From the IMG/VR virus record IMGVR_UViG_3300024255_001824, positions 1 through 42,406 of that record: a stretch of DNA of 42,406 nt. One strand, 5' to 3'. The position numbers and the translations under genes are program-made. Of the stretch, positions 4,659 through 41,317 are shown piece by piece. This stretch comes from a virus. The notes under the pieces are model-generated. The model did not search any database. It saw only the letters and a list, made by a program, of their open reading frames with translations, and was not told the origin of the DNA. The stretch's first letter is position 1. Every line of letters starts with the position of its first letter.

Positions 4659-6851
4659 CTAAAAGTTGTATGAAACTGTCATACCAAAAGTTCTCGGAGC
4701 GTTGAAGTTGCCGTAGGTTCCTAACACATCATCTTTCTGCGGGTCGCGTCGATAGATATATGCTTCGTTTGTCAGGTTACGACTCCATAGCTGAATATCA
4801 AGATACCCATTGCCTAATTGAATATCTCCTACTTTGATACTACTATTTGCGATAGTATGGGCATCGTTCTTTGTATCGTACTGACTGAATGCATATGCAG
4901 CATCAGTATATGTGACGTCAATGTGAGCACTTAAAGAAAACTTATCAAAGTATGTAGTATAGTCCAATCCTATGTTTACCACGTTCTCTGGTGTGAACAC
5001 AATAAATACTTCTTGCAACTCACCGTTAAAGGGGTTAACTGTGTCAGGCACCTCTGTGCTAGTATATGTATACGCACTTGTCAATGTCAACTCTTCTGTT
5101 AGAGCAATCTCTGCATCTAGCTCGATTCCATAAATCTCTGTAGTGCCGGGAGCATTGAGCGTTTCTAGTGTATTGCGCGTTGTCTGAGTGATAGGATCGA
5201 AGTTGACTTGTGAGAAGTCAATCTGTGACCCAGTACGGTCCATCATGAAAAGAGAACTATTCAATACTAAGCGTTCACTTCTCCATTTAGCACCCAGTTC
5301 ATAACTCTTTACAACTTCGGGGCCAAAACCTCGAAAGGTAAGAGAACGACTACTTGCACCGCCAGATCGGTAACCTGTAGCATACTTCGCATAAACATTC
5401 AAGTCTTCGGTTGCATCCCACGCTACAATCGCAACTGGGTCGAAACGAGACTCTTCAATGTCTAAGTCCCATTCTGCATCCAAGCCTTTCACCTTGTAGA
5501 GTTGACCAACCTTGGTATTTTGAGTATATCGACCGCCTAATGTAAAGTGTAAGAAGTTATCATAAGTGTAGGTAGTTTGTCCAAATACTCCCATACTTTC
5601 TGATTCAGCACGAGACCCTCTATCAATTCTCCAATTCTCATATGCCCAAGTATCGGGGTCGTTGATAGTATATCCGGTGAGGTCAGAGTTCCAACGATTA
5701 GTAGAGGGCGTTGCTGCCTCTTCCATTGCGTTCTCTTTGAAATAGTAGGCACCTGCAACATATTGCAATGTATCAGTATCTCCGATAATTTGAAACTCTT
5801 GACTGACTTGGTCCTGCTTCATTTGTGACAAGCTGTATCGACTAAATACTTGGTCAGGCTTAGGGGCGGGTACACGGTGAGCGCCTCCACTGTTGTCCCA
5901 CTGCTCTGAGTCAAGGTCACGATATCCAGTAATAGAACGTACATCGAACCACTCTCCAGACCATGTTAGTTGGAAGGTATGTCCACTCGTCTCGTTGCCA
6001 CTTGCTTGCTGAGGTACACCAATATCAGCAACTTTCATACGGTCGTTGCCTTCTACCACAATTAAGGAAGGTAAAGGCGTAAGTCCTTTATTATTAGGGT
6101 CAAAGTTGAGTAGCTGACTGTAAAAAGGAGTGTTTAAGTCAGTGCCCTGATCATACGAGTAATATGCAAGAAGATTATCTTTTTCCCACTCTGCACTGAA
6201 TCGTATTCCATCGCGATCAAAGAAGTTCCATCCTTCTTGCCCCTCTAGTGGGTTGTCAATAGTGGCATCCTGATACTGACTAATGTAGTCTATCTTTGTT
6301 GCTACTCCATAGAAAGAGGGAAGGTTTAAATGGGCTTCTCTACTAAAGGAATTATAGTTGCCTGCTCCTCCTTTCACTATACCTTCTAACTGACCTGTGG
6401 GGCGACGAGTGACGATGCTCAGGGCACCACCAGAAGTGTTTCTACCGAAAAGTGTCCCCTGTGGACCACGTAGCACCTCTATTCGCTCCACATCGAGAAG
6501 AGCGGCGTTTAATCCATGCTGGCGTCCTAGATAAACTCCGTCTACATATACTCCCACTCCACTTTCTCGGGCGGGTTGGTTTGCATCAAGAGGAACAATT
6601 CCTCGAATACCGATAGTAAGGGCGGTTTGTCTTGCTTCGAAAGTTGCAACGTTTAAGCCGGGCACGGAACCGTCTCCAAAGTCGAGAAGGCTTTGCACAT
6701 GGCGATCTTCAAGGTTTTGAGAAGATTGCACATTCATTGAAATTGGAGTCTCTTGAAGACTCGTCTCTCTTTTGGTTGCGGTTACAACAACTTCTTCCAG
6801 AGAAAAAGCCGGTGCTGCAAATAAAATAATGAGTAAAAGTAGGGGGTGCAT
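4659..6851 (-). CDS. TonB-dependent outer-membrane receptor (full length)
   Basis: A 730-residue protein with all parts of a working receptor. A signal peptide (MHPLLLLIILFAAPAFS) is followed by EEVVVTATKR, a typical start of the plug and possible TonB-box region. The plug (about residues 30-150) carries GVGVYVDGVYLGR and VERIEVLRGPQGTLFGRN. A long beta barrel ends in the outer-membrane Phe (TVSYNF). No frameshift or internal stop is visible, and the length is normal for the family. Such receptors import iron-siderophores, haem, cobalamin or glycans using TonB energy; the substrate cannot be read here. It has its own ribosome-binding site (AAAAGGAG), promoter and terminator, so it is a single-gene unit. 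I know of few phages carrying a complete receptor of this class. Confidence 0.93.
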   Translation of the reverse strand: MHPLLLLIILFAAPAFSLEEVVVTATKRETSLQETPISMNVQSSQNLEDRHVQSLLDFGDGSVPGLNVATFEARQTALTIGIRGIVPLDANQPARESGVGVYVDGVYLGRQHGLNAALLDVERIEVLRGPQGTLFGRNTSGGALSIVTRRPTGQLEGIVKGGAGNYNSFSREAHLNLPSFYGVATKIDYISQYQDATIDNPLEGQEGWNFFDRDGIRFSAEWEKDNLLAYYSYDQGTDLNTPFYSQLLNFDPNNKGLTPLPSLIVVEGNDRMKVADIGVPQQASGNETSGHTFQLTWSGEWFDVRSITGYRDLDSEQWDNSGGAHRVPAPKPDQVFSRYSLSQMKQDQVSQEFQIIGDTDTLQYVAGAYYFKENAMEEAATPSTNRWNSDLTGYTINDPDTWAYENWRIDRGSRAESESMGVFGQTTYTYDNFLHFTLGGRYTQNTKVGQLYKVKGLDAEWDLDIEESRFDPVAIVAWDATEDLNVYAKYATGYRSGGASSRSLTFRGFGPEVVKSYELGAKWRSERLVLNSSLFMMDRTGSQIDFSQVNFDPITQTTRNTLETLNAPGTTEIYGIELDAEIALTEELTLTSAYTYTSTEVPDTVNPFNGELQEVFIVFTPENVVNIGLDYTTYFDKFSLSAHIDVTYTDAAYAFSQYDTKNDAHTIANSSIKVGDIQLGNGYLDIQLWSRNLTNEAYIYRRDPQKDDVLGTYGNFNAPRTFGMTVSYNF

Positions 6852-7178: not shown

Positions 7179-7472
7179 ATGAGCACATACACTGACAAAA
7201 TGGTTGCGGCGATTCGCGCGGCGGCTCCTCTTAACCTCGCAAAAGCGAAGCAACTCGCCAGCGATTTCGGGAGCGTATCACATCGCTCCGTCATTAGCAA
7301 GGCGCAAAGCCTCGGCGTTGAATACGTCAAAGCCGCACCTGCGGCAAAGCGAGAGCGCGGCCCTACAAAGGCCGACATCCTCGCGGAGCTACGGCGCTCG
7401 CTGGCATTGCCTGAGCGTGAAGGTGATTTCACCAAAGGCGAGCTGTCCGTCATTCTGAGCAACATCGGGTGA
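7179..7472 (+). CDS. Small HTH protein (cassette member of phage HTH family)
   Basis: A 97-residue protein. The N-terminal half (YTDKMVAAIRAAA, then AKQLASDFGSVSHRSVISKAQSLGVEYVK) has the layout of the HTH proteins at 10813, 13288, 22770 and 25646: a helix, an A/T-start helix, then SxxSVxxKxxxLGVxY. The C-terminal half (TKADILAELRRSLAL) parallels the C-terminal helix of those proteins. DNA binding is likely. This one uses GC-rich codons, unlike its relatives, which fits arrival from another phage together with the cassette. Confidence 0.7.
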   Translation: MSTYTDKMVAAIRAAAPLNLAKAKQLASDFGSVSHRSVISKAQSLGVEYVKAAPAAKRERGPTKADILAELRRSLALPEREGDFTKGELSVILSNIG

Positions 7473-7666
7473 TAGCGGTTATAGGCTGGTGCGGAGCGGG
7501 GGCTATGGCCCTCGCCCCTTTCGCCATCGACACCGACGCGGGCAAGCTGGCCGCGATTGCTGGGCTGGTATTGTTAACGGTTCAAGCGCTGGACATTCGG
7601 GCGTGGAATCTGGTACTATTGAATCTGGCTGGAATTATAGGATATAGCTATGCACTACTTTTTTGA
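7469..7666 (+). CDS. Small hydrophobic membrane protein (65 aa)
   Basis: Starts with GTG overlapping the upstream stop (GTGA). The sequence is mostly hydrophobic with about three membrane segments (VIGWCGAGAMALAPFA, LAAIAGLVLLTVQAL, WNLVLLNLAGIIGYSYALLF). It resembles small PnuC-like or uncharacterised phage membrane proteins; no function is assigned. Its end overlaps the next gene by 17 nt. Confidence 0.6.
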   Translation: MIAVIGWCGAGAMALAPFAIDTDAGKLAAIAGLVLLTVQALDIRAWNLVLLNLAGIIGYSYALLF

Positions 7667-8123
7667 TCTCGACCATACGGTCATCGACTCATCACACCGC
7701 CAGATCACGCGACCTGACGGCTCGCTTGATCTTGCGGCGTGGGTTCACAACAATACCCGCGCTAACATCATGGCAGATACTCTGCTACCGCTCGCCGCAC
7801 AATGGCGAAAGGTAGATCGCAAGGGCGCGACCATCGTGATCTGCACTGCTCGCGTCATGGGTGAACATGATTACGAATATCTCCGCGCAAACGGCTTGCG
7901 TTGGGACGCCTGCCTCTCGCGTCGGCTGGGCGATAGCTCACCGGATGCGGAGCTAAAAGAGCGAATGATTCGCAAATACGCGCAGGCTCGGCCTATGTCG
8001 TGGGCGCGCTTCTGCGCAACAACCGTCTTTTTTGATGACAACAAAAACGTGCTCGAAATGCTTGCGCGCATTGGCATAAAAGCCTATAATTCAATCTCAC
8101 TCAACGAAAGGTTATCAGCATGA
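7650..8123 (+). CDS. HAD-superfamily phosphatase
   Basis: A 157-residue protein. Motif I is FFDLDHTVID (nucleophile Asp6, acid Asp8), motif II is the Thr in VICTARV, and motif IV is FFDDNKNVLE near the C-terminus. The size and the CTAR motif recall the 3'-phosphatase half of phage polynucleotide kinase and other small phage HAD enzymes. The substrate is unknown; a nucleotide or nucleic-acid 3'-phosphate is plausible. It overlaps the exonuclease gene start by 4 nt, suggesting an operon. Confidence 0.75.
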   Translation: MHYFFDLDHTVIDSSHRQITRPDGSLDLAAWVHNNTRANIMADTLLPLAAQWRKVDRKGATIVICTARVMGEHDYEYLRANGLRWDACLSRRLGDSSPDAELKERMIRKYAQARPMSWARFCATTVFFDDNKNVLEMLARIGIKAYNSISLNERLSA

Positions 8124-8833
8124 TGAGCAAAAACGTAATCGCGGTACTCGACACGGAAACAGTTGGCCTAGAGGGTCACGTTTATGATATCGCGTGGTGT
8201 ATCACTGACAAGCGCGGCAACATCGCTTGTGAGCGTAACTGGCTGGTGCAGGAAAACTTTACCGACCCCACCAAAATGATGGGCGCATTCTATGCGGGCA
8301 AAACCTTTACCCACTACGCTCCAATGTTGCAGGCGGGCACGATCACAATGCGCCCGTGGGCTGAAATTCTCGGCGCGTTGCGAGCCGATTTTCTCTGCTA
8401 CGGTGTGCAGACCGTTTCGGCTTACAATGCCGGTTTCGATCTGCGCGTGATCGACCAGACCCACGGCGATTTGACCGGCGCGGATTTTGACCTTTTTGAC
8501 GGCTTGCAGATTCTCGACATCTGGCAATTTGCCTGCGAGACTAAACTGCAACAAAAAAGCTACGCGCGCATCGCTCGCGCTCTCGGCTGGGTTTCTCCTG
8601 CTGGCAATATCAAGACCGGCGCGGAGTTTGCTTACCGTTTCGTTTGCGGCGATCACTCGTTTATCGAGGATCACACTGCGCTTTCTGACGCGCAAATCGA
8701 GGTTGCGATTTTGGCGGAGTGTTTCCGACAGAAAAAATCTGTCCCGTATGGCGTGATAAACGCGCAACCGTGGCGGCTGGTAAATCCGACCGCTGGCGAG
8801 GATGCCAACGTGCACGGGAGTAAGGTAGCATGA
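8120..8833 (+). CDS. DnaQ-like 3'-5' exonuclease (DEDDh)
   Basis: A 237-residue protein with the family's motifs in order: AVLDTETVGLEG (ExoI, Asp and Glu), SAYNAGFDLRV (ExoII), and HTALSDAQIEV (ExoIII with His of the DEDDh type). Such enzymes remove nucleotides from 3' ends of DNA or RNA. The main polymerase at 29201 already has its own 3'-5' exonuclease domain, so this looks like an extra enzyme that came with the cassette. It overlaps both neighbours by 4 nt. Confidence 0.85.
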   Translation: MMSKNVIAVLDTETVGLEGHVYDIAWCITDKRGNIACERNWLVQENFTDPTKMMGAFYAGKTFTHYAPMLQAGTITMRPWAEILGALRADFLCYGVQTVSAYNAGFDLRVIDQTHGDLTGADFDLFDGLQILDIWQFACETKLQQKSYARIARALGWVSPAGNIKTGAEFAYRFVCGDHSFIEDHTALSDAQIEVAILAECFRQKKSVPYGVINAQPWRLVNPTAGEDANVHGSKVA

Positions 8834-8922
8834 GATATTTAGCACTGGCCTATCTGGTCTATTCTGTCACCACGGATCTAGCGATCTGGGGAGGCGCGCT
8901 CTACTACTTTTTCGGAGGATGA
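8830..8922 (+). CDS. Tiny membrane protein (30 aa)
   Basis: Begins MRYLALAYLVYSVTTDL and ends ALYYFFGG, one hydrophobic span. ATGA overlap with the exonuclease stop, and the GGAGG before its own stop serves the next gene, so it fits the operon tightly. Function unknown. Confidence 0.5.
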   Translation: MRYLALAYLVYSVTTDLAIWGGALYYFFGG

Positions 8923-8926
8923 ACCC

Positions 8927-9529
8927 ATGAAAAAATTGCAAGCAAAACTAAACCGACTCGCTGAGAATTTAAACTCTCCGGTTGCGGTAATTTTAGAAGG
9001 GCGCGACACTGCCGGAAAATCCTCTACCATTCGAGAATTAACACACTACCTACCACCCGACCTCTACAGCGTTTGCCTATCTCACAAGCCCAGCAAACGC
9101 GCAATGGCGGCATGGCTGGGATACTGGGAAACCAAACTACCGAAGCAAAACCAAATTGTGTTTTTTGATCGCTCTTGGTATTCCCGCGCAATGGTGCAAC
9201 ATTTAAACGAATGGTGTAGCCCGAAGCAATACGAAATTTTTATGCGCGATCACAAAAACTGGGAAGCTACTCAGCCGGTGCGCTTGATTAAATTCTGGCT
9301 TTCCATTTCAGAAGACGAACAAAAACGCCGCATTGATTACCGCAAAAATTCTCCGCTCACCTACTGGAAATTTTCGGAGAATGACGAAAATGCGCTTTCA
9401 CATTATGATCGAATGTCAATATTAAAAGAGCGCGTGATAGACTCCGAATGGCACACTATAGATTTTGAAAACAAAAAACGCGGAATCAAAAACCTGCTTT
9501 CTGTTTTATGCGACCAGCTAGCTAAATGA
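8927..9529 (+). CDS. Polyphosphate kinase 2 (PPK2) family protein
   Basis: A 200-residue P-loop kinase. Walker A is EGRDTAGKSST (residues 24-34), Walker B is FFDRSWYSRAM (79-89), and the lid/substrate region is KRRIDYRKNSPLTYWKFS (133-150) preceded by KFWLSISEDEQ. These are the signature blocks of PPK2, which moves phosphate between polyphosphate and nucleotides (usually making ATP or GTP from ADP or GDP). It is shorter than common bacterial PPK2 proteins (roughly 230-300 residues), lacking N- and C-terminal extensions, but all catalytic blocks are present. It is last in the cassette operon; its stop codon lies inside the right-hand repeat. Base composition is close to that of the cassette, though less GC-rich. 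Confidence 0.85.
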   Translation: MKKLQAKLNRLAENLNSPVAVILEGRDTAGKSSTIRELTHYLPPDLYSVCLSHKPSKRAMAAWLGYWETKLPKQNQIVFFDRSWYSRAMVQHLNEWCSPKQYEIFMRDHKNWEATQPVRLIKFWLSISEDEQKRRIDYRKNSPLTYWKFSENDENALSHYDRMSILKERVIDSEWHTIDFENKKRGIKNLLSVLCDQLAK

Positions 9530-9553: not shown

Positions 9554-9569
9554 TGTTCCACGTGGAACA
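9554..9569. promoter_or_regulatory. Perfect parS-type palindrome (ParB/Spo0J site)
   Basis: TGTTCCACGTGGAACA, a perfect 16-bp palindrome. It equals the parS form found near chromosome origins of proteobacteria such as Pseudomonas and is one transition per arm from the Bacillus form. No parA or parB gene is visible, so the site would be read by host ParB. It lies between the right cassette border and the promoter cluster. Confidence 0.8.
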
Positions 9570-10138: not shown

Positions 10139-10327
10139 ATGAACGATATTCAATTTGAAGCTATGCAACTGTACGCAGGTATGCGTATGGAAGGCGTGCC
10201 TAAGCTGGATGCCTTTCTATACACCATACGGTGCTTGCTTCCAGAGGAGGAGTACCCAAATGGGTATGACGACAGTGCAATCGAACTGTATTCTTGGCTA
10301 AGACAAAAGGTAAAACTAGATGTATAA
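10139..10327 (+). CDS. Small hypothetical protein (62 aa)
   Basis: Begins MNDIQFEAMQLYAGMRMEG and ends WLRQKVKLDV. GGAGG lies 6 nt before the ATG and the promoter just upstream excludes a longer N-terminus. It is helical with acidic patches (LLPEEEYPNGYDD). It overlaps the metallopeptidase gene by 8 nt. No family recognised. Confidence 0.7.
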   Translation: MNDIQFEAMQLYAGMRMEGVPKLDAFLYTIRCLLPEEEYPNGYDDSAIELYSWLRQKVKLDV

Positions 10328-10754
10328 GTTAAAAACCAAAGCAAAAAAACACTGGTCAGTAAGCGAACGAAGGCTCGCAAAACGAGCTATTGAATTCGCA
10401 ATAGACGAACTAGATCTTGGTGTTAGCCCCGTACATATCGATATACGACTAAAGGGAGCACACGAAACTGACTTTGGAGACTCTATAGACCTGGAGTACA
10501 AAATTGTAGTGAGACTATTCAAAAGCCCTAACTGGCTTAAAACACTGTTTCACGAGCTTGAACACGTTAGGCAGTACATTTACTGCGAGCTTGAGCTAGA
10601 AACCGACCACGCTATGTGGCAAGGCACACTTTCCACCAGAGATATAAACAACTGGGACGAGTACTGGAGTGCTCCTTGGGAAGTGGCCGCAAGAGAAAAA
10701 GAAGTAGAATTATTTACAGCTTTCCAAAAAAATCTCTTGACATCATCCTCATAA
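10320..10754 (+). CDS. Putative zinc metallopeptidase (HExxH)
   Basis: A 144-residue protein with LFHELEHVRQ near residue 78, an HExxH zinc motif. Further on is EYWSAPWEVAAREKE, where a Glu could be the third ligand. The layout (small, HExxH, then PWExxAxxxE) is like phage and host SprT-like or ImmA-like peptidases. It lies in the first rightward operon, where host-takeover proteins are common. The next promoter's -35 is inside its last codons. Substrate unknown. Confidence 0.7.
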   Translation: MYKLKTKAKKHWSVSERRLAKRAIEFAIDELDLGVSPVHIDIRLKGAHETDFGDSIDLEYKIVVRLFKSPNWLKTLFHELEHVRQYIYCELELETDHAMWQGTLSTRDINNWDEYWSAPWEVAAREKEVELFTAFQKNLLTSSS

Positions 10755-10812: not shown

Positions 10813-11142
10813 ATGACTGACATGACTGCAAAGGCTTCGGCCAACTACACTCAAGAGATGGTTGAGTTCATCTCTGACCAATACACCGCTGTTCCGACTC
10901 GTGCTACCGTCGATCAGCTTGCTGAGAAGTTTAACAAGACTCCTCGTAGCATCATCGCAAAGCTTTCTGCTCTTGGCTTGTACATCAAAGCTGAGCGAGT
11001 AACTAAGCGAGGCGAGCCAGTTGTTCGCAAGGACGAGTTGGTTGCTCAGGTTCAGGCAAGTGTTGGTGTAGAGCTGCCTTCACTGGCTAAGATGACCAAA
11101 GTTGATCTTCAAAATCTTATCGACTTTTTCTCAGCAGCGTAA
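10813..11142 (+). CDS. Small HTH protein, family member A
   Basis: A 109-residue protein. Residues 10-60 carry YTQEMVEFISDQY, then TVDQLAEKFNKTPRSIIAKLSALGLYIKAE, an HTH of the kind shared by five genes in the window. The C-terminal half (RKDELVAQVQASVGVELPSLAKMTKVDLQNLIDFF) is a second helical region. Codon use is rich in GCT, CGT and AAG, suggesting strong expression. It has its own promoter and terminator, so it is a single-gene unit. Role: regulator or abundant DNA-binding protein (inferred). Confidence 0.75.
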   Translation: MTDMTAKASANYTQEMVEFISDQYTAVPTRATVDQLAEKFNKTPRSIIAKLSALGLYIKAERVTKRGEPVVRKDELVAQVQASVGVELPSLAKMTKVDLQNLIDFFSAA

Positions 11143-12949: not shown

Positions 12950-13291
12950 ATGACTAATGTTTTACAATTTCCAGACAAATCGCCAAAATCGCAGCGGGTG
13001 CGCAACGAACTTTCAGTACTGGGAAATAACCTGGAAATTTGCTACGAAGCCATAGAAGAAGCAGTACAGGCTTTGAGTGAAATGGAAGAACAAATTAAGT
13101 TGTTGGAAAACAACTACAATATCAAACTGATGGAGCTGGTGGAAGAGGTAGGTTTTGCGGAAGTGACGGCAGAAGAGTTTCAATACGCAACGAATATCGG
13201 GGTCGGGGCGGGGTCTCGGCAGTTTACATTAACTTTGGAAGACGGCAAGATATTTACATTTACTATAGACGAAGGAGAACCGAAAGAGTGA
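12950..13291 (+). CDS. Coiled-coil protein of unknown function (113 aa)
   Basis: Begins MTNVLQFPDKSPKSQRVRNE. A central coiled coil (ICYEAIEEAVQALSEMEEQIKLLENNY) is followed by a beta-type C-terminal part (RQFTLTLEDGKIFTFTIDEGE). AAAGGAGAG lies 4 nt before the ATG, an excellent site. It overlaps the HTH gene by 4 nt, so the two proteins are probably made together and may interact. Confidence 0.7.
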   Translation: MTNVLQFPDKSPKSQRVRNELSVLGNNLEICYEAIEEAVQALSEMEEQIKLLENNYNIKLMELVEEVGFAEVTAEEFQYATNIGVGAGSRQFTLTLEDGKIFTFTIDEGEPKE

Positions 13292-13605
13292 GCAACTATA
13301 CTCAAGAACAAACCGATTATATGGTTGAAATCTACAGTAAAAATCCGAATAGAGAAACTGTAGAAGTAATAGCAGCAAAAATGGATAAAAGTGTTAAAAG
13401 TATTATAGGAAAGCTCTCACGCGAAGGGGTTTACCGAAGAGAGAAGTATGTAAGTAAAACTGGAGAAAGTCCAATCACGAAAGCAGAACTTATTATAGCA
13501 CTGGCAAATTTACTACGGATAGAAGACTATACGCTATCTGGACTAGAAAAGGCCCCGAAGCCAGTCTTGAAAAAATTAAAAGAAATTGTGGAAGAACTTG
13601 TATAA
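13288..13605 (+). CDS. Small HTH protein, family member B
   Basis: A 105-residue protein starting with GTG overlapping the upstream stop. YTQEQTDYMVEIYSKN, then VEVIAAKMDKSVKSIIGKLSREGVYRREKY matches member A (10813) almost position by position. SKTGESPITKAELI likewise parallels TKRGEPVVRKDELV. Its C-terminal helices are longer. Unlike member A it uses AT-rich codons. Probably a DNA-binding regulator. Confidence 0.75.
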   Translation: MSNYTQEQTDYMVEIYSKNPNRETVEVIAAKMDKSVKSIIGKLSREGVYRREKYVSKTGESPITKAELIIALANLLRIEDYTLSGLEKAPKPVLKKLKEIVEELV

Positions 13606-14022: not shown

Positions 14023-14247
14023 ATGTATATACTAAAAGACGAAAAAGAAATACACGGCGTATTCAGCACTGAAAGCTACGCTATACTGGCTAGTCGATTT
14101 GTACAGGCTTCAGCCTACTCCTCTGCAATTTCGGACCTACGTATTGTACCCGTTACACTGGATACAATTCGTGGAAATGATATTCGTACTATTATGAATT
14201 TTTACGAGAGTGCCATACACGAAAAAAAGGCCCTAGGGCCCTTTTAG
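14023..14247 (+). CDS. Small hypothetical protein (74 aa)
   Basis: Begins MYILKDEKEIHGVFSTESYA and ends HEKKALGPF. It is a small alpha/beta protein. Its 3' end overlaps the end of the convergent MazG-like gene by about 15 nt. Function unknown. Confidence 0.6.
   Translation: MYILKDEKEIHGVFSTESYAILASRFVQASAYSSAISDLRIVPVTLDTIRGNDIRTIMNFYESAIHEKKALGPF
14226..14246. terminator. Possible bidirectional terminator between convergent genes
   Basis: A G/C-rich palindromic core (GGCCCTAGGGCC) flanked by A-run on the left and T-run on the right, exactly where the plus gene at 14023 and the minus gene at 14233 end. The stem is short, so efficiency is unclear. Confidence 0.45.
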
Positions 14248-14619
14248 TAGAAAAGATAGGTCTGGAGTAAAGAACCCCGGGCCTTTTTGTACCTTACCAT
14301 CAAAACGCTTAATAGGCTTACCATCCTCGCCTAGCTTGCTCATGTTGCTTTCATGTACCTCTAGAAAGCAAGCATCGAGATCAATACCAAAAGCATGACC
14401 GGCTCCGTAAACCACGTAGAGTAAATCGGTAAGTGCGTCAGCGACTTCAATAACATCTTTCGCACCCATAGCTTCATCCAACTCCTCCAGTTCTTCTCTG
14501 ATAAGTTCGTGCCGGAGCGCTCTTGTCTGCGGGTCACGAAGAGTGGGGTTACTGTATACATCTTGTTCAAATGCTCGCATGAACTCTTTGACGAGTTCGA
14601 AGTTTGTTTTGTTCTGCAA
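14233..14619 (-). CDS. MazG-like nucleotide pyrophosphohydrolase
   Basis: The core KTNFELVKEFMRAFEQ, then HELIREELEELDEAM, VIEVADALTDLLYVVYGAGHAFGIDLD matches the all-alpha MazG/phosphoribosyl-ATP pyrophosphohydrolase fold (EExxE, then ExxDxxxD). Such phage enzymes hydrolyse NTPs or alarmones such as ppGpp. The start is uncertain. The longest frame overlaps all of the central part of the bS21 gene, so I prefer the TTG at 14619, which has GGGAG 10 nt before it; an ATG at 14580 would cut the fold. It follows bS21 in a leftward operon. Confidence 0.75.
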   Translation of the reverse strand: MQNKTNFELVKEFMRAFEQDVYSNPTLRDPQTRALRHELIREELEELDEAMGAKDVIEVADALTDLLYVVYGAGHAFGIDLDACFLEVHESNMSKLGEDGKPIKRFDGKVQKGPGFFTPDLSFLLKGP

Positions 14620-14785
14620 TTCTTTTTCTCTCCCTTGATTTTGCTGATAGTTTTGCTTTATGTTTTTTGCGCGATGGTTTTTCAAAGTATTGTTTCTCTC
14701 TAAAGTCAAACATTTTTTCACTATACATTCGTTTAAAAACCCTCAAAGCTGCGTTTATGTTATTATTCCGTACTTTTACTGACAT
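14567..14785 (-). CDS. rpsU: Ribosomal protein bS21 homologue
   Basis: A 72-residue basic protein beginning MSVKVRNNNINAALRVFKRM, then REKQYFEKPSRKKHKAKLSA and KSRERKRIAEQNK. This is the order of bacterial bS21 (VxVRxNExxxxALRRFKR, then RRRExYEKPSxxRKRKxxxA). bS21 sits on the small subunit near the anti-Shine-Dalgarno region and helps initiation. Phage copies are known in marine phages and could bias host ribosomes toward phage mRNA. It overlaps the MazG-like gene and lies in the leftward operon started at 15161. Confidence 0.85.
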   Translation of the reverse strand: MSVKVRNNNINAALRVFKRMYSEKMFDFREKQYFEKPSRKKHKAKLSAKSRERKRIAEQNKLRTRQRVHASI

Positions 14786-15277: not shown

Positions 15278-15430
15278 TTGGGTATATCAGTTGGTGAATT
15301 TGCCATTTTTATGTTCTGCATGATTGGATGCGGCGTACAATGTTGGCACCTAGGAAAAAGTACGGGTGTGGAAGCAACTGTACAGTACATGATTGATACA
15401 GGGGTTCTCGAAGTAGAAGAAGATTCGTAG
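15278..15430 (+). CDS. Small membrane protein with TTG start (50 aa)
   Basis: AAAGGAGAG lies 4 nt before a TTG start. The product reads GISVGEFAIFMFCMIGCGVQ after the initiator and ends TGVLEVEEDS. A membrane span is followed by GKSTGVEATVQYMIDTG and an acidic end. I have seen this layout (span, G-x-x-x-G, VxYLIexGvLEvdE) in many marine phages; function unknown. Confidence 0.65.
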   Translation: MGISVGEFAIFMFCMIGCGVQCWHLGKSTGVEATVQYMIDTGVLEVEEDS

Positions 15431-15447
15431 AAGTAACAAACTGACGG

Positions 15448-15481
15448 TTGGACTCGGGTGCAACTCCCGACAGCTCCACCA
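15448..15481 (+). other. tmRNA-type 3' end (T arm, acceptor strand, CCA) without a 5' half
   Basis: The 34 bases match the 3' end of enterobacterial tmRNA (ssrA) except for four positions. Two of the four are a swapped base pair in the T stem (G-C becomes T-A), which keeps the stem TCGGG/CCCGA. The end CAGCTCCACCA is intact. No partner GGAGCTG that would close an acceptor stem, and no tag reading frame, was found upstream. It lies between two small genes, just before the ribosome-binding site at 15484. It could be an attachment site for insertion into a host ssrA gene, half of a split tmRNA, or a tRNA-like decoration of the mRNA. Confidence 0.7.
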
Positions 15482-15495
15482 TAAGGAGTTTTATA

Positions 15496-15666
15496 ATGCG
15501 TATACCAATGAAAGGTGGTGATGAGTTTGACGGACTTGATCGCAGAAGCAAGCGTTTTCTTAGATGGAGATCTGGAGAGCGAAAAGCACTCAAACGTAAG
15601 TACAATAAACGACGCAGAAAGACTTTTTATGACGGGGCTGATACAGACTCGACAGGCGTACAGTAG
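15496..15666 (+). CDS. Small basic protein (56 aa)
   Basis: Begins MRIPMKGGDEFDGLDRRSKR and includes RWRSGERKALKRKYNKRRRK. AAGGAG lies 8 nt before the ATG. Longer frames would begin inside the tmRNA-like element and are rejected. It overlaps the next gene for 150 nt in another frame. I recall GERKAIKRxYNKR-type proteins in marine phages, without function. Confidence 0.6.
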   Translation: MRIPMKGGDEFDGLDRRSKRFLRWRSGERKALKRKYNKRRRKTFYDGADTDSTGVQ

Positions 15667-15751
15667 ACTTATGGAGAATCCGTGCGGAAGCTACGTTAAC
15701 GCAACAAACTTAATAAATGCCAATGATGACGTTTATACACTTGCAGCCTAA
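15515..15751 (+). CDS. Hypothetical protein overlapping the basic gene (78 aa)
   Basis: Begins MVMSLTDLIAEASVFLDGDL (or MSLTD two codons on) and ends NDDVYTLAA. Most of its length overlaps the gene at 15496 in another frame. The composition looks protein-like and the last 85 nt lie beyond the overlap, so both frames may be used. Confidence 0.5.
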   Translation: MVMSLTDLIAEASVFLDGDLESEKHSNVSTINDAERLFMTGLIQTRQAYSRLMENPCGSYVNATNLINANDDVYTLAA

Positions 15752-15814
15752 TTAGGTGTGCGGGGTCCGAGGAGCCTGGCAACAGAAATCCTCATGTTAA
15801 CCAAAGGAGGTTAT

Positions 15815-16222
15815 ATGCGAAAGATTATAGCAGGGTTGGCACTTCTCGGCCTCTCGGCCGGAATCAGTGCAGAAACTGTAATTAATTATGACGATGGATC
15901 GACGTATACACTCACGGACGGGCAAGAAATTTACATCAGCACTCCAAACAGTGCGTTGTTTAAGCGACAATTGATGAAGAACAAGGATACCTTTTTTAGG
16001 GTTCAAAAGCCTTGGACTTCAAGAGACTACGTTCCACAACCGCAAGATCCTTTTGCTGTAGGTAGTCACGGTTGGTGCCAAGTATACGTTCCTTGGAGCG
16101 AGGGCTATACATTTAATATGCAGGCTTTCCAACGTTTCTGTGATACTGATAATGATGGAAAATACGGATGTGGCGACGAGTTGTTCGATGCATCTGACGA
16201 AGGAGGAGTTTGCGCTCCTTAA
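15815..16222 (+). CDS. Secreted protein with EF-hand-like calcium loop
   Basis: AAAGGAGG lies just before this ATG, so the longer frame from 15758 is rejected. The 135-residue product has a signal peptide (MRKIIAGLALLGLSAGISA). The mature part begins ETVINYDDGSTYTLTDGQEIYIS and has four cysteines. Near the end is DTDNDGKYGCGDE, matching the DxDxDGxxxxxDE calcium-binding loop of EF-hand/dockerin type. The INYDDGSTYTLxxGExIYIS start recurs in marine phages. Export to periplasm or beyond is likely; the role is unknown. Confidence 0.7.
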   Translation: MRKIIAGLALLGLSAGISAETVINYDDGSTYTLTDGQEIYISTPNSALFKRQLMKNKDTFFRVQKPWTSRDYVPQPQDPFAVGSHGWCQVYVPWSEGYTFNMQAFQRFCDTDNDGKYGCGDELFDASDEGGVCAP

Positions 16223-16301: not shown

Positions 16302-16727
16302 ATGACAAAGCAAAATTTAATAAATATGAACGACGTTCACAAGTTCTTTTTGGGACTTGATCTTCACCCTGATTTCTTTTCTAATTCACCTATGACTGGC
16401 TATCCTCGCTACAATGTTGTGCGAGTAGGTAGTAGTGACTATCGTGTAGAGGTCGCAGTCCCGGGCTGGGATAAAGAAGATATAGAAATTACTTTGCATA
16501 AAAATGAGTTGAAAATTGAAGGAACTCAGAAGCAAGTAGCCGAGCAGGACGAGACCTATCTTTACAAAGGACTAAGCGGTAAAACTTTTTCACGGGTATT
16601 CAAGGTTGGAAACAACATTGAGCTGGATACAGCGTATATGAAGAATGGACTTCTTTGTATCGATCTTGTAGAAAATGTACCTGAAGAAGACAAGCCTAAA
16701 AGGATAGAAATCGTAAATGCAGTATGA
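16302..16727 (+). CDS. Small heat-shock protein (Hsp20/IbpA type)
   Basis: A 141-residue protein with an alpha-crystallin domain. YPRYNVVRVGSSDYRVEVAVPGW is followed by DIEITLHKNELKIEG, ETYLYKGLSGKTFSRVFKVG, MKNGLLCIDLVENVPEEDKP and IEI. These are the conserved blocks of bacterial IbpA and of the Hsp20 proteins of cyanophages. It holds unfolding proteins and may aid folding of virion proteins or of the exported proteins encoded nearby. The next tiny gene starts inside its 3' end. Confidence 0.9.
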   Translation: MTKQNLINMNDVHKFFLGLDLHPDFFSNSPMTGYPRYNVVRVGSSDYRVEVAVPGWDKEDIEITLHKNELKIEGTQKQVAEQDETYLYKGLSGKTFSRVFKVGNNIELDTAYMKNGLLCIDLVENVPEEDKPKRIEIVNAV

Positions 16728-17425: not shown

Positions 17426-17516
17426 TGGTTGTGAGACTGTAAAAATAGAAAGAGTAAATTGTAACCTTTCTGAGAACTGGCCTCAATGTAATGTAATTGC
17501 CTCAAAGGAGGACTAA
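17373..17516 (+). CDS. Small lipoprotein (outer-spanin-like candidate)
   Basis: From a GTG start the 47-residue product begins (M)TYFTKRLNVAVFVLLISGCE, with lipobox ISGC and cleavage before Cys. The mature part has two more cysteines (VNCNLSENWPQCN). It overlaps the previous gene by 53 nt in another frame, as Rz/Rz1 pairs do, and precedes the lysozyme by one gene. No clear inner spanin is visible, so the role is tentative. Confidence 0.55.
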   Translation: MTYFTKRLNVAVFVLLISGCETVKIERVNCNLSENWPQCNVIASKED

Positions 17517-17896
17517 TGTATTCAGACAAGGTACTAGATCATTATGAAAATCCCAGGAATGTCGGAAAACTTGACAAAAATGATGAGGCTGTCGGAACAG
17601 GCCTCACAGGTGCTCCAGCGTGTGGAGACGTCATGCAACTTCAAATCCGAGTATCGACCGACGGAATTATTGAAGATGCTAAATTCAAAACTTACGGATG
17701 CGGCAGTGCTATTGCTTCTTCATCACTACTCACAGAATGGGTTAGAGGAAAGTCCCTTAACGAAGCGGGAAAGATCAGCAATGTCCAAATTGCTAAAGAG
17801 CTATCACTCCCGCCTGTAAAGATACACTGTAGCGTGTTGGCCGAAGACGCGATCAAAGCCGCAATCACGGATTATAGGAGCAAGCATGAATCGTGA
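17516..17896 (+). CDS. iscU: IscU-type iron-sulfur cluster scaffold
   Basis: A 126-residue protein, the normal length of IscU. The three cluster ligands are in place: Cys36 (APACGDV, with the nearby Asp38), Cys62 (TYGCGSAIASSS) and Cys105 (KIHCSVLAEDAI). LPPVK at 98-102 is the HscA chaperone recognition motif, so it should still dock with the host Isc system. IscU builds 2Fe-2S and 4Fe-4S clusters from IscS sulfur and iron. No iscS or hscA is in the window. ATG overlaps the lipoprotein stop by one base and its 3' end overlaps the lysozyme start, so it is embedded in the lysis operon. Confidence 0.92.
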   Translation: MYSDKVLDHYENPRNVGKLDKNDEAVGTGLTGAPACGDVMQLQIRVSTDGIIEDAKFKTYGCGSAIASSSLLTEWVRGKSLNEAGKISNVQIAKELSLPPVKIHCSVLAEDAIKAAITDYRSKHES

Positions 17897-20098: not shown

Positions 20099-20485
20099 AT
20101 GGGAGTAACTCTTGGAAAGTATAATTCTAAGTTGCTAAATGTAGAGCACCCTCCCCACTATAAAGCACATCCTAGTGGGGTTGAGTGTATTCAAATTACA
20201 GAACATATGAACTTTTGTTTGGGAAACGCTATAAAGTATGTTTGGAGAGCAGGGGTAAAGAGTAAGGATCCTGTCGAAGATTTAAGTAAAGCAGTCTGGT
20301 ATATTAATAGGGAGATAGCAAAAATTGAGAAGAATCAAGAAGAAAGAGTCCGAGAACTTGTCCGATACGAATATACAGAAAGTAATAACCCTTCTAGCTG
20401 GCACACCGGCTATTTCCAAAAAGGAAGCCTGTGGTATCCTGAATATAGCATACAATACAGCACGACTTCAGAAGATCATAGATGA
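20099..20485 (+). CDS. DUF3310-like protein (SaV-type)
   Basis: HPPHYKAHPSGVECIQITEHMNFCLGNAIKYVWRAG, then DLSKAVWYINREI fits DUF3310, sometimes called a phage nucleotide kinase, although kinase motifs are not visible. The conserved domain ends near residue 75; the rest overlaps the HTH regulator gene for about 160 nt, so the true gene may have been extended or truncated here. Confidence 0.7.
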   Translation: MGVTLGKYNSKLLNVEHPPHYKAHPSGVECIQITEHMNFCLGNAIKYVWRAGVKSKDPVEDLSKAVWYINREIAKIEKNQEERVRELVRYEYTESNNPSSWHTGYFQKGSLWYPEYSIQYSTTSEDHR

Positions 20486-22628: not shown

Positions 22629-22657
22629 TTGACTTTCATCTTCAATAGAAGTATAAT
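22629..22657 (+). promoter_or_regulatory. Sigma70-type promoter
   Basis: TTGACT (22629-22634), 17-nt spacer, TATAAT (22652-22657). Drives the HTH gene at 22770. Confidence 0.85.
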
Positions 22658-22769
22658 ATGTGTATTGAAGATGAGGAAACCAATGGGATTTCGTTTTTAT
22701 AAACAACAACTAGCCGCGACAGGAATGTGTCCTGGCGCAAAACTTACACAACTTAGAAGGAAACGTAAA

Positions 22770-23138
22770 ATGGCATGGGACGACGATAAGAAGGCACAAG
22801 CTGTAGCTATGTATGAAGCAGCTGACCCTACTCCCGAAACATCAATGGAAATTGTCAAAGACATTGCGGATGAACTGGAAGAGTCACCTAATGGTGTTCG
22901 TATGATTCTTACCAAAGCTGGTGTCTATGTAAAGAAGAGCCCCGCTTCTGGTGGCAGCAAGGCAGCCTCGAATGGTGGTAGCGGCGCTCGAGTATCAAAA
23001 GCCGCCGCTCAAGAAGCTCTGATTGCTGCTATTAGCGATTCAGGTCAATCTGTGGATGAAGAAATCATTAGCAAGTTGACAGGCAAAGCTGCACAATACT
23101 TTACTACAGTATTAAATGCGGTAAACTCCGCAGGCTAA
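22770..23138 (+). CDS. Small HTH protein, family member C
   Basis: MAWDDDKKAQAVAMYEAA, then MEIVKDIADELEESPNGVRMILTKAGVYVKK matches the HTH layout of members A and B. A Gly/Ser/Ala-rich linker leads to a C-terminal helix region (AAAQEALIAAIS). AGAAGGAAACGTAAA precedes the ATG. The frame is open upstream to 22683, so an N-terminal extension (MGFRFYKQQL) is possible, but the family starts at this Met. Codons suggest strong expression. Confidence 0.75.
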   Translation: MAWDDDKKAQAVAMYEAADPTPETSMEIVKDIADELEESPNGVRMILTKAGVYVKKSPASGGSKAASNGGSGARVSKAAAQEALIAAISDSGQSVDEEIISKLTGKAAQYFTTVLNAVNSAG

Positions 23139-23859: not shown

Positions 23860-23882
23860 ATATGGTCTAAGTGGGAGAAAGT

Positions 23883-37731: not shown

Positions 37732-38582
37732 TGGCATTTAATTTTGAAGATAAGCTATTTAATGATGAATACTCCCCGCAGTCTACTTTAATTGTAGACT
37801 CTTTAAATCTAGCTTTTCGATGGAAGCACCAAGGAAGGTCAGACTTTAGGTATGAATTTGAAAGTACAGTTCAAAGTCTAGCAAAATCATACGGCACAGA
37901 TAGAGTAATTATTACTGCGGATTGGGGAGCTTCCTCTTATAGAAAAATAATTAGCGGAGATTATAAACAAAATAGAAAAGAAAAAATTGCAGAACAAACA
38001 GAAGAAGAAAGAATAGCATTTGAAGAGTTTTTTGAAGAGTTTGAAGCCAGTCTAGAGGTAATGAAAGAGGGCGGCTATGTAGTTCTTCGATATAAAGGAG
38101 TGGAAGCAGACGACCTTGCGGGACACTTAGTAAAATATAAAGATAAATATGGGCTAGGAGATATTTGGCTTATATCAAGTGACCGAGACTGGGATTTGCT
38201 AGTACAAGAAGGTGTAAGTAGGTTTTCTTATGTGACGAGGAAGGAAGTCACGCTAGAAAATTGGAGTAGTCACTATGACTGCACTCCCGAAGAGTACATC
38301 TCTGTTAAGTGCTTGATGGGGGATAAAGGAGATAATGTTGCGGGCTTCCCCGGGATTGGCATAAAGCGCGCAGTAAGTCTTGTAAAAGAATATGGTAGTG
38401 CTTATGATATTTATGAAGCCGTACCTATACATAGTAAATATAAATTTATACAAGGATTGAATGAAAATCCAGAGCAGATTCTTAAAAACTATGAGTTAAT
38501 GGACTTATTAACTTATTGCGATGATGCGCTAGGTGCAACTAATTTTAAGGATATACGAGGGAGAATGTTAGATGGGCTATAA
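37731..38582 (+). CDS. 5'-3' exonuclease / flap endonuclease (FEN)
   Basis: 283 residues. Acidic metal sites in LIVDSLNLAFRW, KGVEADDLAGHLV and LISSDRDWDLLV; the H3TH motif in LMGDKGDNVAGFPGIGIKRAVSLVKEYG. Removes RNA primers and flaps. Supplies the activity that the family A polymerase lacks. Confidence 0.92.
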   Translation: MAFNFEDKLFNDEYSPQSTLIVDSLNLAFRWKHQGRSDFRYEFESTVQSLAKSYGTDRVIITADWGASSYRKIISGDYKQNRKEKIAEQTEEERIAFEEFFEEFEASLEVMKEGGYVVLRYKGVEADDLAGHLVKYKDKYGLGDIWLISSDRDWDLLVQEGVSRFSYVTRKEVTLENWSSHYDCTPEEYISVKCLMGDKGDNVAGFPGIGIKRAVSLVKEYGSAYDIYEAVPIHSKYKFIQGLNENPEQILKNYELMDLLTYCDDALGATNFKDIRGRMLDGL

Positions 38583-40353
38583 CGTAGTTGTCGACTATAA
38601 TCGAGACGCGTATTTATCAGAGTTTAGTAAAAAAACTTTGGAAGATAGATATATGATTGACGGAGAATTATCTCCCCAAGATGCTTTTTCACGTGCAGCA
38701 AAAGCATTCGCAAATGATGAAAAGCACGCACAAAGACTATATGACTATGCTAGTAAGCTTTGGTTCATGTTTAGTACCCCAATTCTTTCAAATGGCGGTA
38801 CTACAAGAGGGCTGCCTATTAGTTGTTTTTTAAACTATGTGGATGATAGTCGAGAAGGGCTTACAAATCATTATACTGAAAATGCTTTTTTAAGTAGTGT
38901 TGGTGGGGGTGTAGGAGGATGCTGGAACGGGGTTCGGAGTGTAGGCTCGAAAACGAGCAATGGCTCCGAAAGTACTGGCGTTATTCCTTTTATGAAAGTT
39001 GTTGATGCCGAAATGCTTGCGTTTAGCCAGGGAGTAACACGTCGGGGAAGTTATGCTGCTTATCTGGACATGTCCCACCCAGAAATAGAGGAATTTTTAG
39101 ATGTTCGAAAGCCTACTGGCGGTGATATTAACCGTAAGTCTACTAACCTTCATCATGGGGTCGTGGTTTCAGATTCTTTTATGGAGCTCATCGAGCGAGC
39201 CACAAGAGAAGAAGGATTTAATGATAGTTGGGATCTTCGCGATCCTCATACTGGCCGCATTGTAAAAACGGTATCCGCAAAAACACTTTGGGTAAAGTTG
39301 ATTCAAAATCGTGTAGAGACGGGGGAACCTTACATTATGTTTGGGGATACCGTACAAGAAGGATTACCAGAGTGTCAAAAAGAGAAAGGTTTAAAAGTAC
39401 ACCATTCAAATCTTTGTAGTGAAATTACTCTTGCTACAGATGAAGATCGTACTGCCGTGTGTTGTTTATCAAGTGTAAATCTAGAAGAATTTGATGAGTG
39501 GCAACACGATGAGAATTTCATTCCAGACCTAGTTGCAATGCTTGACAATGTACTTTCATACTTTGTTGAAAATGCCCCTCGTGAGCTATGGAGAGCAGCG
39601 TATAGTGCTATGCAGGAAAGAAGTATTGGTCTGGGGGCAATGGGCTTTCATGCCTACCTACAAAGACATAATCAGCCATTTGAAGGTATAATGGCAAAGA
39701 GTGCAAACATGAGAATGTTTAAACACATAAAATCGGAGGCAAATCGTGCAACTCTTAAATTGGCTATGGAAAGGGGCGAAGCTCCTGATGCAGTCGGCTA
39801 CGGAGTTCGTAATGTTCACTTGTTGGCTGTTGCTCCTAATGCTAGTAGTTCCATTATTTGTGGTAACACTAGTCCAAGCATCGAGCCTTATCGCGCTAAC
39901 GCGTTTACTCAAAAAACTAAGTCCGGGTCAAGTCTACAAAAGAACGAATATTTAGAGCATATCCTTCAAGAATTAGGAGAAGATACAGATGAAGTATGGA
40001 AAGGAGTTATTACAAACGGTGGTTCGGTTCAACATCTTGACTTTCTTGATGATTGGACAAAAGACGTATTCAAAACTGCAGTGGAAATTGACCAGAGATG
40101 GGTTATCGATCTCGCAGCCGATCGACAGCAATATATCTGTCAAAGTCAATCTTTAAATGTGTTTTTTCCTGCAAATGTGTCAAAGCAAGAGCTTCACGCT
40201 ATTCATATGATGGCATGGAAAAAGAAAGTAAAAACTCTATATTATTTAAGAAGTGAAGCGTACAAGCGGGCTGAAAAAGTTTCTGATGAAGCATTACGGC
40301 AGTATATTTTTGACAGCTTGGACGAAGGCGCGTGTTTAGCGTGTGAGGGTTAA
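38572..40353 (+). CDS. nrdA: Ribonucleoside-diphosphate reductase, alpha subunit (class I)
   Basis: 593 residues. Redox and catalytic cysteines are in GLPISCFLNY, SNLCSEITL (with Asn and Glu) and AVCCLSSVNLEEF; the radical-path tyrosines are in TLYYLRS and the C-terminal shuttle pair is CLACEG. PNASSSIICGNTSPSIEP is the substrate-phosphate loop. There is no N-terminal ATP-cone, so dATP feedback at the activity site is probably absent. Converts NDPs to dNDPs for phage DNA synthesis. Followed by nrdB. Confidence 0.93.
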   Translation: MGYNVVVDYNRDAYLSEFSKKTLEDRYMIDGELSPQDAFSRAAKAFANDEKHAQRLYDYASKLWFMFSTPILSNGGTTRGLPISCFLNYVDDSREGLTNHYTENAFLSSVGGGVGGCWNGVRSVGSKTSNGSESTGVIPFMKVVDAEMLAFSQGVTRRGSYAAYLDMSHPEIEEFLDVRKPTGGDINRKSTNLHHGVVVSDSFMELIERATREEGFNDSWDLRDPHTGRIVKTVSAKTLWVKLIQNRVETGEPYIMFGDTVQEGLPECQKEKGLKVHHSNLCSEITLATDEDRTAVCCLSSVNLEEFDEWQHDENFIPDLVAMLDNVLSYFVENAPRELWRAAYSAMQERSIGLGAMGFHAYLQRHNQPFEGIMAKSANMRMFKHIKSEANRATLKLAMERGEAPDAVGYGVRNVHLLAVAPNASSSIICGNTSPSIEPYRANAFTQKTKSGSSLQKNEYLEHILQELGEDTDEVWKGVITNGGSVQHLDFLDDWTKDVFKTAVEIDQRWVIDLAADRQQYICQSQSLNVFFPANVSKQELHAIHMMAWKKKVKTLYYLRSEAYKRAEKVSDEALRQYIFDSLDEGACLACEG

Positions 40354-40354
40354 T

Positions 40355-41317
40355 ATGAGTAATTTGTTACAGGAAAGAGAATATTATAAGCCTTTTAATT
40401 ATCCGTGGGCTTTTAAACATTATAAGACTCAACAGCATATGCATTGGCTTCCTGATGAAGTGAATCTTGCGGATGACTTGCGAGACTATCGAGATAAGTT
40501 GACTCCCGAAAATCGTCGACTTATTAATCAGATTTTTAGATTCTTTACCCAAGCTGATGTAGATGTTTGTTGTGGATACGCAAAGCATTATCTACCCACA
40601 TTTAAGCAGCCAGAAGTAAGAATGATGCTATCAGCTTTTGCTGCAATGGAAGCGGTACACCAAGAAGCTTATTCATTATTACTAGAAACCCTTGGTTTTG
40701 GGGATGATGAATACCAAAAGTTTTTTGAACATAAAGAAATGATGGACAAGCATGAGTATCTTTCAAATTTTGGAATGGATACTCCGATGAATATTGCAAA
40801 AACAATGGCGATTTACTCTGGGTTCACCGAAGGAGTACAGTTATTTAGTAGCTTTGCAATTTTGTTAAACTTTCCAAGACATAATTTGATGAAAGGTATG
40901 GGCCAGATTGTTACATGGTCTGTTCGTGACGAAACTTTGCACGTTGAAGGAATGTCACAGCTTTTCCGTACTTTTATTCATGAAAATTCTCAGCTATGGA
41001 CTGATGATCTAAAGTATGAGATTTACTGCGCAGCCGAACGAACAGTAGAACTGGAAGATGCTTTTATTGATTTGTGCTTTGCGGGGGCGTCTATTCCTGA
41101 CCTAACCCCGGAAGAGGTAAAAGAATATATTCGATATATTGCGGATCGTAGACTTCTTGGTCTAGGAATGAAGAAAATATTTAGCAGTGATAAAAATCCT
41201 TTACCTTGGCTAGATTATATGCTAAACGGGGTAGAGCACACTAACTTTTTTGAAAACAGAGCCACTGAGTACTCTCGTGCAAGTACTACAGGTAACTGGC
41301 AAGATATATTTAAATAG
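40355..41317 (+). CDS. nrdB: Ribonucleoside-diphosphate reductase, beta subunit
   Basis: 320 residues from the ATG at 40355 (a GTG four codons earlier overlaps nrdA). Metal ligands: Asp in FFTQADVDV, Glu and His in MEAVHQEAY, Glu in GFTEGVQL, and Glu and His in RDETLHVEG. The Tyr four residues after the first His (HQEAY) matches the radical Tyr122 of E. coli. A di-metal tyrosyl-radical subunit is therefore likely; iron or manganese cannot be told. Confidence 0.93.
   Translation: MSNLLQEREYYKPFNYPWAFKHYKTQQHMHWLPDEVNLADDLRDYRDKLTPENRRLINQIFRFFTQADVDVCCGYAKHYLPTFKQPEVRMMLSAFAAMEAVHQEAYSLLLETLGFGDDEYQKFFEHKEMMDKHEYLSNFGMDTPMNIAKTMAIYSGFTEGVQLFSSFAILLNFPRHNLMKGMGQIVTWSVRDETLHVEGMSQLFRTFIHENSQLWTDDLKYEIYCAAERTVELEDAFIDLCFAGASIPDLTPEEVKEYIRYIADRRLLGLGMKKIFSSDKNPLPWLDYMLNGVEHTNFFENRATEYSRASTTGNWQDIFK

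Follow-up and report, generated by a model that had tools for sequence, protein, structure and literature searches.

A short polyphosphate kinase 2 from a virus-only lineage of T5-like phages, probably a polyphosphate-driven (d)NDP kinase

A virus record of 42,406 bases, analysed here over its whole length (the window), encodes a PPK2-family kinase. We consider this protein to be, probably, a minimal class I-side PPK2 from a virus-only T5-like lineage that acts as a polyphosphate-driven (d)NDP kinase beside the ribonucleotide reductase (RNR) of the phage. Many bacteria keep polyphosphate as a large reserve of phosphate and energy, and the product of a class I-type RNR is a dNDP. The phage PPK2 would use host polyphosphate as the donor of a terminal phosphate for nucleoside diphosphates, and dNDPs from the class I-type phage RNR, together with NDPs, would be converted to dNTPs and NTPs without ATP cost. 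We infer that the reaction runs in this direction, that it acts at the level of NDPs rather than NMPs, that it includes deoxynucleotides and that it benefits the phage.

The PPK2 gene occupies positions 8927-9529 (+); its ATG start has GGAGG eight bases 5' of it, its TGA lies at 9527-9529, and it encodes 200 aa. A first-pass annotation had read it as a phage-encoded PPK2 that might tap host polyphosphate for nucleotides and energy late in infection, and the product indeed matches PF03976 (PPK2) over residues 5-198 (134.6 bits, E 5.1e-39, cut-off 22.3), with PPK2s making up all 18 matches of a PDB sequence search at E <= 0.001. In viral contigs, 43 of the 46 candidate stretches from a first scan encode PPK2 relatives at 60-100% identity, as do 300 of 332 from a second scan and 302 of 327 found with the query A2. 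The best 80 of the 300 and the best 80 of the 302 were taken; these sets are biased towards their query, and A2 was picked among distant members to widen the sample. The lineage comprises about 300 relatives in uncultivated viral contigs. Across 551 pairs of viral PPK2s the median dN/dS is 0.166 and no value exceeds 0.34; the viral clade is under purifying selection. Given the viral relatives (43, then 300) and the low dN/dS, 8927-9529 is a genuine gene of the PPK2 family and a chance open reading frame can be dismissed. Among cellular genomes, at least 570 of 594 candidate stretches encode relatives, with best-segment identities to the window protein of 31-41% (best 80 of at least 570), SAR86 coming first. 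Matches were also found in 15 of 50,697 phage records, the best at 40% identity; none of the 50,697 is a T5-like phage with this PPK2 lineage.

All signature blocks of PPK2, which the first-pass annotation had described, were found: D27 and K31 in Walker A, D81 and R82 in Walker B, and R135 and R139 in the lid. Their places in the window, with those of other residues discussed below, are as follows.

8999..9019 (+): Walker A, GRDTAGK, residues 25-31; D27 corresponds to Francisella tularensis D62 and K31 to K66
9167..9181 (+): Walker B, DRSWY, residues 81-85; D81 corresponds to F. tularensis D117 and R82 to R118
9182..9184 (+): Ser86, the class-signature position; Ser in 111 of 111 viral rows
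9197..9214 (+): residues 91-96 with the viral-specific Q91, N94 and W96, beside the proposed nucleotide pocket
9329..9385 (+): lid segment R135-D153, with R135, R139, K148 and D153 conserved

Eight residues (D81, R82, W84, Y85, R135, R139, K148 and D153) are invariant in all 111 distinct viral rows; D27 and K31 occur in 109 of them and fall in gaps in the remaining two. The catalytic Asp and the lid Arg are accordingly kept in every viral row that covers them. In the sequence alignment, R135 and R139 correspond to R174 and R178 of F. tularensis PPK2. Changing K66, R118 or R178 of that enzyme to Ala is reported to weaken polyphosphate binding and activity (PMC8776046), and the retention of the equivalent polyphosphate-binding residues K31, R82 and R139 supports the (d)NDP kinase reading. 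One lid Lys (F. tularensis K184) is kept in 35 of 111 viral rows; the other 76 have Thr there, as does the window protein.

An AlphaFold2 model of the window PPK2 has a mean pLDDT of 83.9 and a pTM of 0.83, with residues 151-159, part of the lid, below a pLDDT of 50. The 50 best matches listed by Foldseek against the PDB are all PPK2s. In VIA-align the top 25 entries are again all PPK2s (Z 19.5-22.4), and thymidylate kinases form the next group at Z 14.0 and below. Structures of PPK2 classes I, II and III are tied in Z, and we therefore dropped a class assignment by structure. Thymidylate kinases and phage dNMP kinases share the P-loop kinase superfamily with the window protein but are set apart by this structure score (Z about 14). 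The Pfam thymidylate kinase match likewise stays under its cut-off (21.9 bits, cut-off 27) and the tree described below places the protein among PPK2s, so we rejected a thymidylate-kinase-like P-loop protein. With the catalytic Asp and lid Arg retained and a thymidylate kinase rejected, neither of the two grounds on which the first-pass annotation would have given up its assignment was found. In BFVD the model has one strong match, a 419-aa 'thymidylate kinase' from an uncultured marine phage, and the window protein matches no PHROG family at E <= 0.001; routine annotation can thus miss or misname this lineage.

For phylogenetic placement we dropped domains of fewer than 130 profile positions, merged identical sequences (196 of 265 kept) and thinned the rows to 64, of which 22 were viral, 35 cellular and 7 from other phages. 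In the resulting tree the 22 viral representatives are grouped as a single clade (100/100) whose long stem measures 1.62 changes per column, and within this sample the lineage has a single viral origin. The clade groups with SAR86-type cellular rows and copies from huge phages (99/98) and lies on the class I side of the tree (46 rows, 100/99), separated from the domains of classes II and III. The PPK2s of Moraxella phage Mcat6 and Pseudomonas phage Y15 cluster with cellular rows and are thus separate cases.

The residue after Walker B is described as Asn in class I, Gly in class II and Glu in class III (PMC8776046). The viral rows have Ser there, and therefore neither the class II nor the class III residue. 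The best NCBIfam model of the window protein is TIGR03707 at 154.3 bits, far under its equivalog cut-off of 301.8. Tree placement hence speaks for class I and the signature residue and TIGR03707 cut-off do not, and because Ser stands in for Asn we file the viral PPK2 on the class I side, short of calling it a class I member. Ser or Thr is found at this position in 46 of 102 class I-side cellular rows as well (a set of 102 out of 121, from which class III rows and the tandem proteins of class II had been removed). The signature residue is consequently not decisive for class, and the viral Ser86 may have been inherited.

At eleven positions the viral rows are fixed for a residue that is rare in the same 102 cellular rows. 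They include Q91, N94 and W96, which correspond to E127, M130 and F132 of F. tularensis PPK2, in which a nucleotide pocket has been proposed at D117-F132 (PMC4748334). Three of the 11 fall in this 17-residue segment, which gives a Fisher P of 0.056 over all positions and of 0.30 when restricted to viral-fixed positions; a concentration of the changes in the nucleotide pocket is thus unsupported. A more specific version of our reading, in which the enzyme is a remodelled, polyphosphate-powered and ATP-independent dNDP kinase that ties viral DNA synthesis directly to the phosphate store of the host, with a pocket of Ser86, Gln91, Asn94 and Trp96 tuned to RNR products, is possible but on balance doubtful.

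The viral proteins are also shorter than most bacterial forms, as the first-pass annotation had observed. Past the PPK2 domain, the tail has a median of 1 residue in 68 viral rows versus 40 (range 18-61) in 107 cellular rows; at the N terminus a length comparison is rough, since the first Met of each open frame was used as its start. A dimer clamp has been described for EbPPK2 (PMC12257356). The lost C-terminal tail may hold a clamp of this type, so that the oligomeric state of the tail-less viral PPK2 may differ from that of tailed forms.

We compared the window protein to other PPK2s. Class I enzymes (F. tularensis PPK2, PDB 5LL0/5LLB, and the P. aeruginosa-type TIGR03707 proteins) share its fold, Walker A and B motifs and lid residues, with 32% identity to 5LLB in the structural alignment. 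The viral clade differs from them in having Ser for Asn, no C-terminal tail and Gln, Asn and Trp at F. tularensis positions 127, 130 and 132. The nearest cellular branch holds PPK2s of the SAR86 cluster, Marinimicrobia and Crocinitomicaceae, which are proteins of ~280 aa with ~36-41% identity and mostly Ser or Thr at the signature position. PPK2s of huge uncultured phages (LR745206, LR756501 and LR756502) are viral and lie near the same branch, but they fall outside the viral clade of the window, share 36-40% identity with its protein, carry Asn at the signature position and have the PPK2 in the C-terminal half of ~390-420-aa frames. In two huge-phage loci (L263, 3428-4690, and L265, 3392-4651) the PPK2 frame is ~420 aa long and its N-terminal half of ~180 residues has no Pfam match.

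Virus-encoded ppk is reportedly among the auxiliary metabolic genes described by Li in 2025 (Water Res 268:122678). Virus-encoded ppk2 has been published as an auxiliary gene (PMC13188868, PMC9636769). In the accessible passages of these two surveys, ppk1 and ppk2 in virus contigs appear as gene counts or expression, and no lineage, phage type or biochemistry is given. The accessible text of a PPK2 review (PMC8776046) does not contain the word 'phage', and we found no biochemical study of a phage PPK2 in the literature searched, which excludes most subscription papers. The first-pass annotation, which knew of no characterised phage PPK2, is therefore right within this literature, with the qualification that viral ppk2 auxiliary genes had already been published. 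Viral ppk2 as an auxiliary gene is known; the tail-less, virus-only lineage is a new variant.

The genes around PPK2 in the window, and three nucleotide-metabolism genes farther away, are listed here; where a number of loci is given, it tells in how many of 114 distinct loci of PPK2 relatives the gene lies at most five genes upstream.

7469..7666 (+): small membrane-type protein, by sequence reading; 52 loci
7650..8123 (+): HAD phosphatase, phrog_415 (E 1.6e-19); 64 loci
8120..8833 (+): DnaQ-like exonuclease, phrog_20187, plus weak matches to polymerase exonucleases; 41 loci
8830..8922 (+): 30-aa hydrophobic peptide frame, between the DnaQ-like gene and PPK2
14233..14721 (-): MazG-like pyrophosphohydrolase, PF01503, phrog_671
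38572..40353 (+): RNR large subunit, PF02867 (376.3 bits), phrog_84
40343..41317 (+): RNR small subunit, PF00268 (247.5 bits)

The reductase and the MazG-like enzyme that the first-pass annotation had placed in the same phage are both there, the former as class I-type RNR genes at 38572-41317 and the latter at 14233-14721. The window is a virus record with a T5-like gene set, in keeping with the phage origin first assigned to PPK2. Gene by gene in tblastn, its replication module matches that of Pantoea phage AAS21, a Demerecviridae record: PolA is 43% identical, LigA 47%, LigB 33%, D5 46%, D12 42%, D13 33%, the flap exonuclease 44% and TerS 40%, and the primase matches as well. Among 21 carrier records, 17 have TerL, 9 a D12 homologue and 19 at least one of the two; the remaining two are fragments of 25 and 34 kb. 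Judged by replication module and terminase, the host genome of PPK2 is that of a T5-like phage. With T5-like genes surrounding PPK2 and TerL or D12 in 19 of 21 carrier records, we rejected cellular contamination of the contig.

By its phrog_415 match, the HAD phosphatase resembles the phosphatase portion of polynucleotide kinases from phages. Together with its place within five genes upstream of PPK2 in 64 of 114 loci, this could mean that the PPK2 fold has been re-used as a nucleic-acid or protein kinase, for example as an end-healing partner of the adjacent phosphatase. The retained polyphosphate-binding residues K31, R82 and R139 argue against such re-use, as do carriers in which PPK2 lies at other sites, by Hsp20 and other genes, and two records described below that keep the HAD gene without PPK2; we rate it as highly improbable. 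Another family, cluster 20, is found within five genes upstream in 19 of 114 distinct loci. A pattern scan of the region for terminators gave 4 sites versus 5.1 expected, and none of them lies at the end of the PPK2 gene.

Among nine records selected by their PolA, PPK2 is present in two, both previously known carriers, and absent from seven. Neighbours were compared in G090-G094 only, of which G090, G091 and G092 are fragments without the HAD or DnaQ-like gene and so carry no weight on this point. In G094 and G093, whose PolAs are 81% and 83% identical to that of the window, the HAD gene and the downstream gene at 10320-10754 are present and PPK2 is missing. In G094, 87 of 96 bases of the DNA upstream of PPK2 align, ending just before the PPK2 start, and this record also encodes the 30-aa hydrophobic peptide; in G093, 100 of 118 bases align. 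The downstream stretch aligns over 56 of 61 bases in G094 and 49 of 54 in G093. We therefore regard PPK2 as occupying a variable slot between conserved flanks. It is an accessory gene; a core gene of this phage group is ruled out by the seven records lacking it, G093 and G094 with the locus present. An accessory gene in such a slot might serve in counter-defence, providing donor-independent nucleotide charging when a host defence drains ATP or dNTPs. We think this very unlikely, as our analysis linked no defence system to PPK2 and ordinary metabolic genes also occupy accessory slots.

Starting 25 bases after the PPK2 stop, at 9554-9569, lies a perfect chromosomal-type parS palindrome, TGTTCCACGTGGAACA, the single one in the window, where 0.07 matches with up to two mismatches are expected. 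Its sequence is that of parS2 and parS3 in Pseudomonas aeruginosa (PMC4368675). Among the 53 distinct PPK2 loci with a HAD neighbour and 700 bases or more following PPK2, 39 contain a site with at most one mismatch, 26 of them exact, versus 0.05 in shuffled sequences; of the other 57 loci, 13 have a site. The sites of related loci fall into three symmetric parS variants, and other viral contigs contain the pattern too, in at least 120 stretches. In G093 the parS directly follows the DnaQ-like gene, and since this record has no PPK2, the site belongs to the locus rather than to PPK2. ParB_N has no match in any of 10 phage records, and the predicted parS may recruit host ParB. Between 9673 and 10113 there are near-perfect predicted sigma-70 promoters on both strands, three of which point back towards PPK2; the window has 14 predicted sigma-70 promoters with at most one mismatch versus 0.7 expected.

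Several other features of the window are recorded here in their own right. An intact TonB-dependent receptor gene (4659-6851, (-), PF00593 and PF07715) is shared by 1 of 173 relative loci, which lies on a near-identical contig. Of the 50,697 phage records, 7 match this gene, none extending over 80% of its length. FhuA is a receptor of cultivated T5-like phages, and BtuB has been reported as the receptor of one (PMC8624392). A permuted tmRNA gene at 15389-15842 (+) with the tag ANDDVYTLAA scores 112.6 bits with RF04321 and 85.1 bits with RF01849 (alpha_tmRNA). Small, putatively DNA-binding proteins are encoded in multiple copies at 7179-7472, 10813-11142, 13288-13605 and 22629-23138; the label was given by reading, and the first two copies were added by reading and related-locus search. 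This family counts 281 open reading frames in 150 of 159 related loci, all in one similarity cluster. The window further encodes an Hsp20 (16302-16727), a NifU/IscU-type Fe-S scaffold (17516-17896; phrog_8429, PF01592) and an NAD-dependent DNA ligase in two genes (23871-24827 and 24880-25659), as in T5-like phages. A 533-aa frame at 21018-22619 has no Pfam or PHROG match and is absent from 173 related loci in tblastn.

We searched carrier records, which may be incomplete, for other enzymes of nucleotide metabolism. NDK has no match in any of 10 carrier records, and Thymidylate_kin gives only sub-cut-off matches, in 7 of the 10, with all seven places inside the PPK2 gene. ThyX is present in 4 of 10. 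A tblastn search for the AAS21-type dNMP kinase, ThyA, DHFR and dUTPase gave nothing in the window or in G003, G006 and G009. A DUF3310 protein at 20099-20485, which PHROGs labels a nucleotide kinase, was rejected as one because Pfam gives DUF3310 alone. With RNR present and other nucleotide kinases of the tested families absent, a polyphosphate:(d)NDP kinase is the simplest fit. The Ser in place of the class I Asn, the Thr in the lid, the lost tail and the non-core status of the gene count against it.

Some of these observations bear on the level of phosphorylation. A polyphosphate:(d)NMP kinase could replace the dNMP kinase that cultivated T5-like phages encode, and no homologue of that enzyme was found in the window, in G003, in G006 or in G009. 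Such an activity would agree with the replaced class I Asn and the changed residues near the nucleotide pocket, and the highest structural Z belongs to 9h8l, a class II enzyme with bound TMP, though it is tied with class I and III structures. Against it stand the tree, which places the protein on the class I side and apart from classes II and III, and the NCBIfam scores, with 154 bits for TIGR03707 (class I type) versus 99 for TIGR03708 and 82 for TIGR03709. We consider an NMP-level enzyme unlikely. The (d)NDP kinase that we prefer would also be in line with one PPK2 for which broad nucleotide use has been indicated (PMC7347700).

PPK2s can synthesise polyphosphate, and some contribute to this in vivo (PMC8776046), so that the phage enzyme might instead make or trim polyphosphate, or alter stress signalling in the host through ATP and GTP levels, and play no part in supplying dNTPs. 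PPK2s are, however, described as mostly favouring nucleotide synthesis (PMC12257356), and a gene set that has RNR and lacks other nucleotide kinases of the tested families better fits nucleotide supply; a reverse or regulatory role thus appears very improbable to us. If a polyphosphate-driven (d)NDP kinase is indeed what these phages carry, their PPK2 would form a direct link from the polyphosphate store to viral replication, and its 200-aa domain without the usual tail would offer a simple start for biochemistry.
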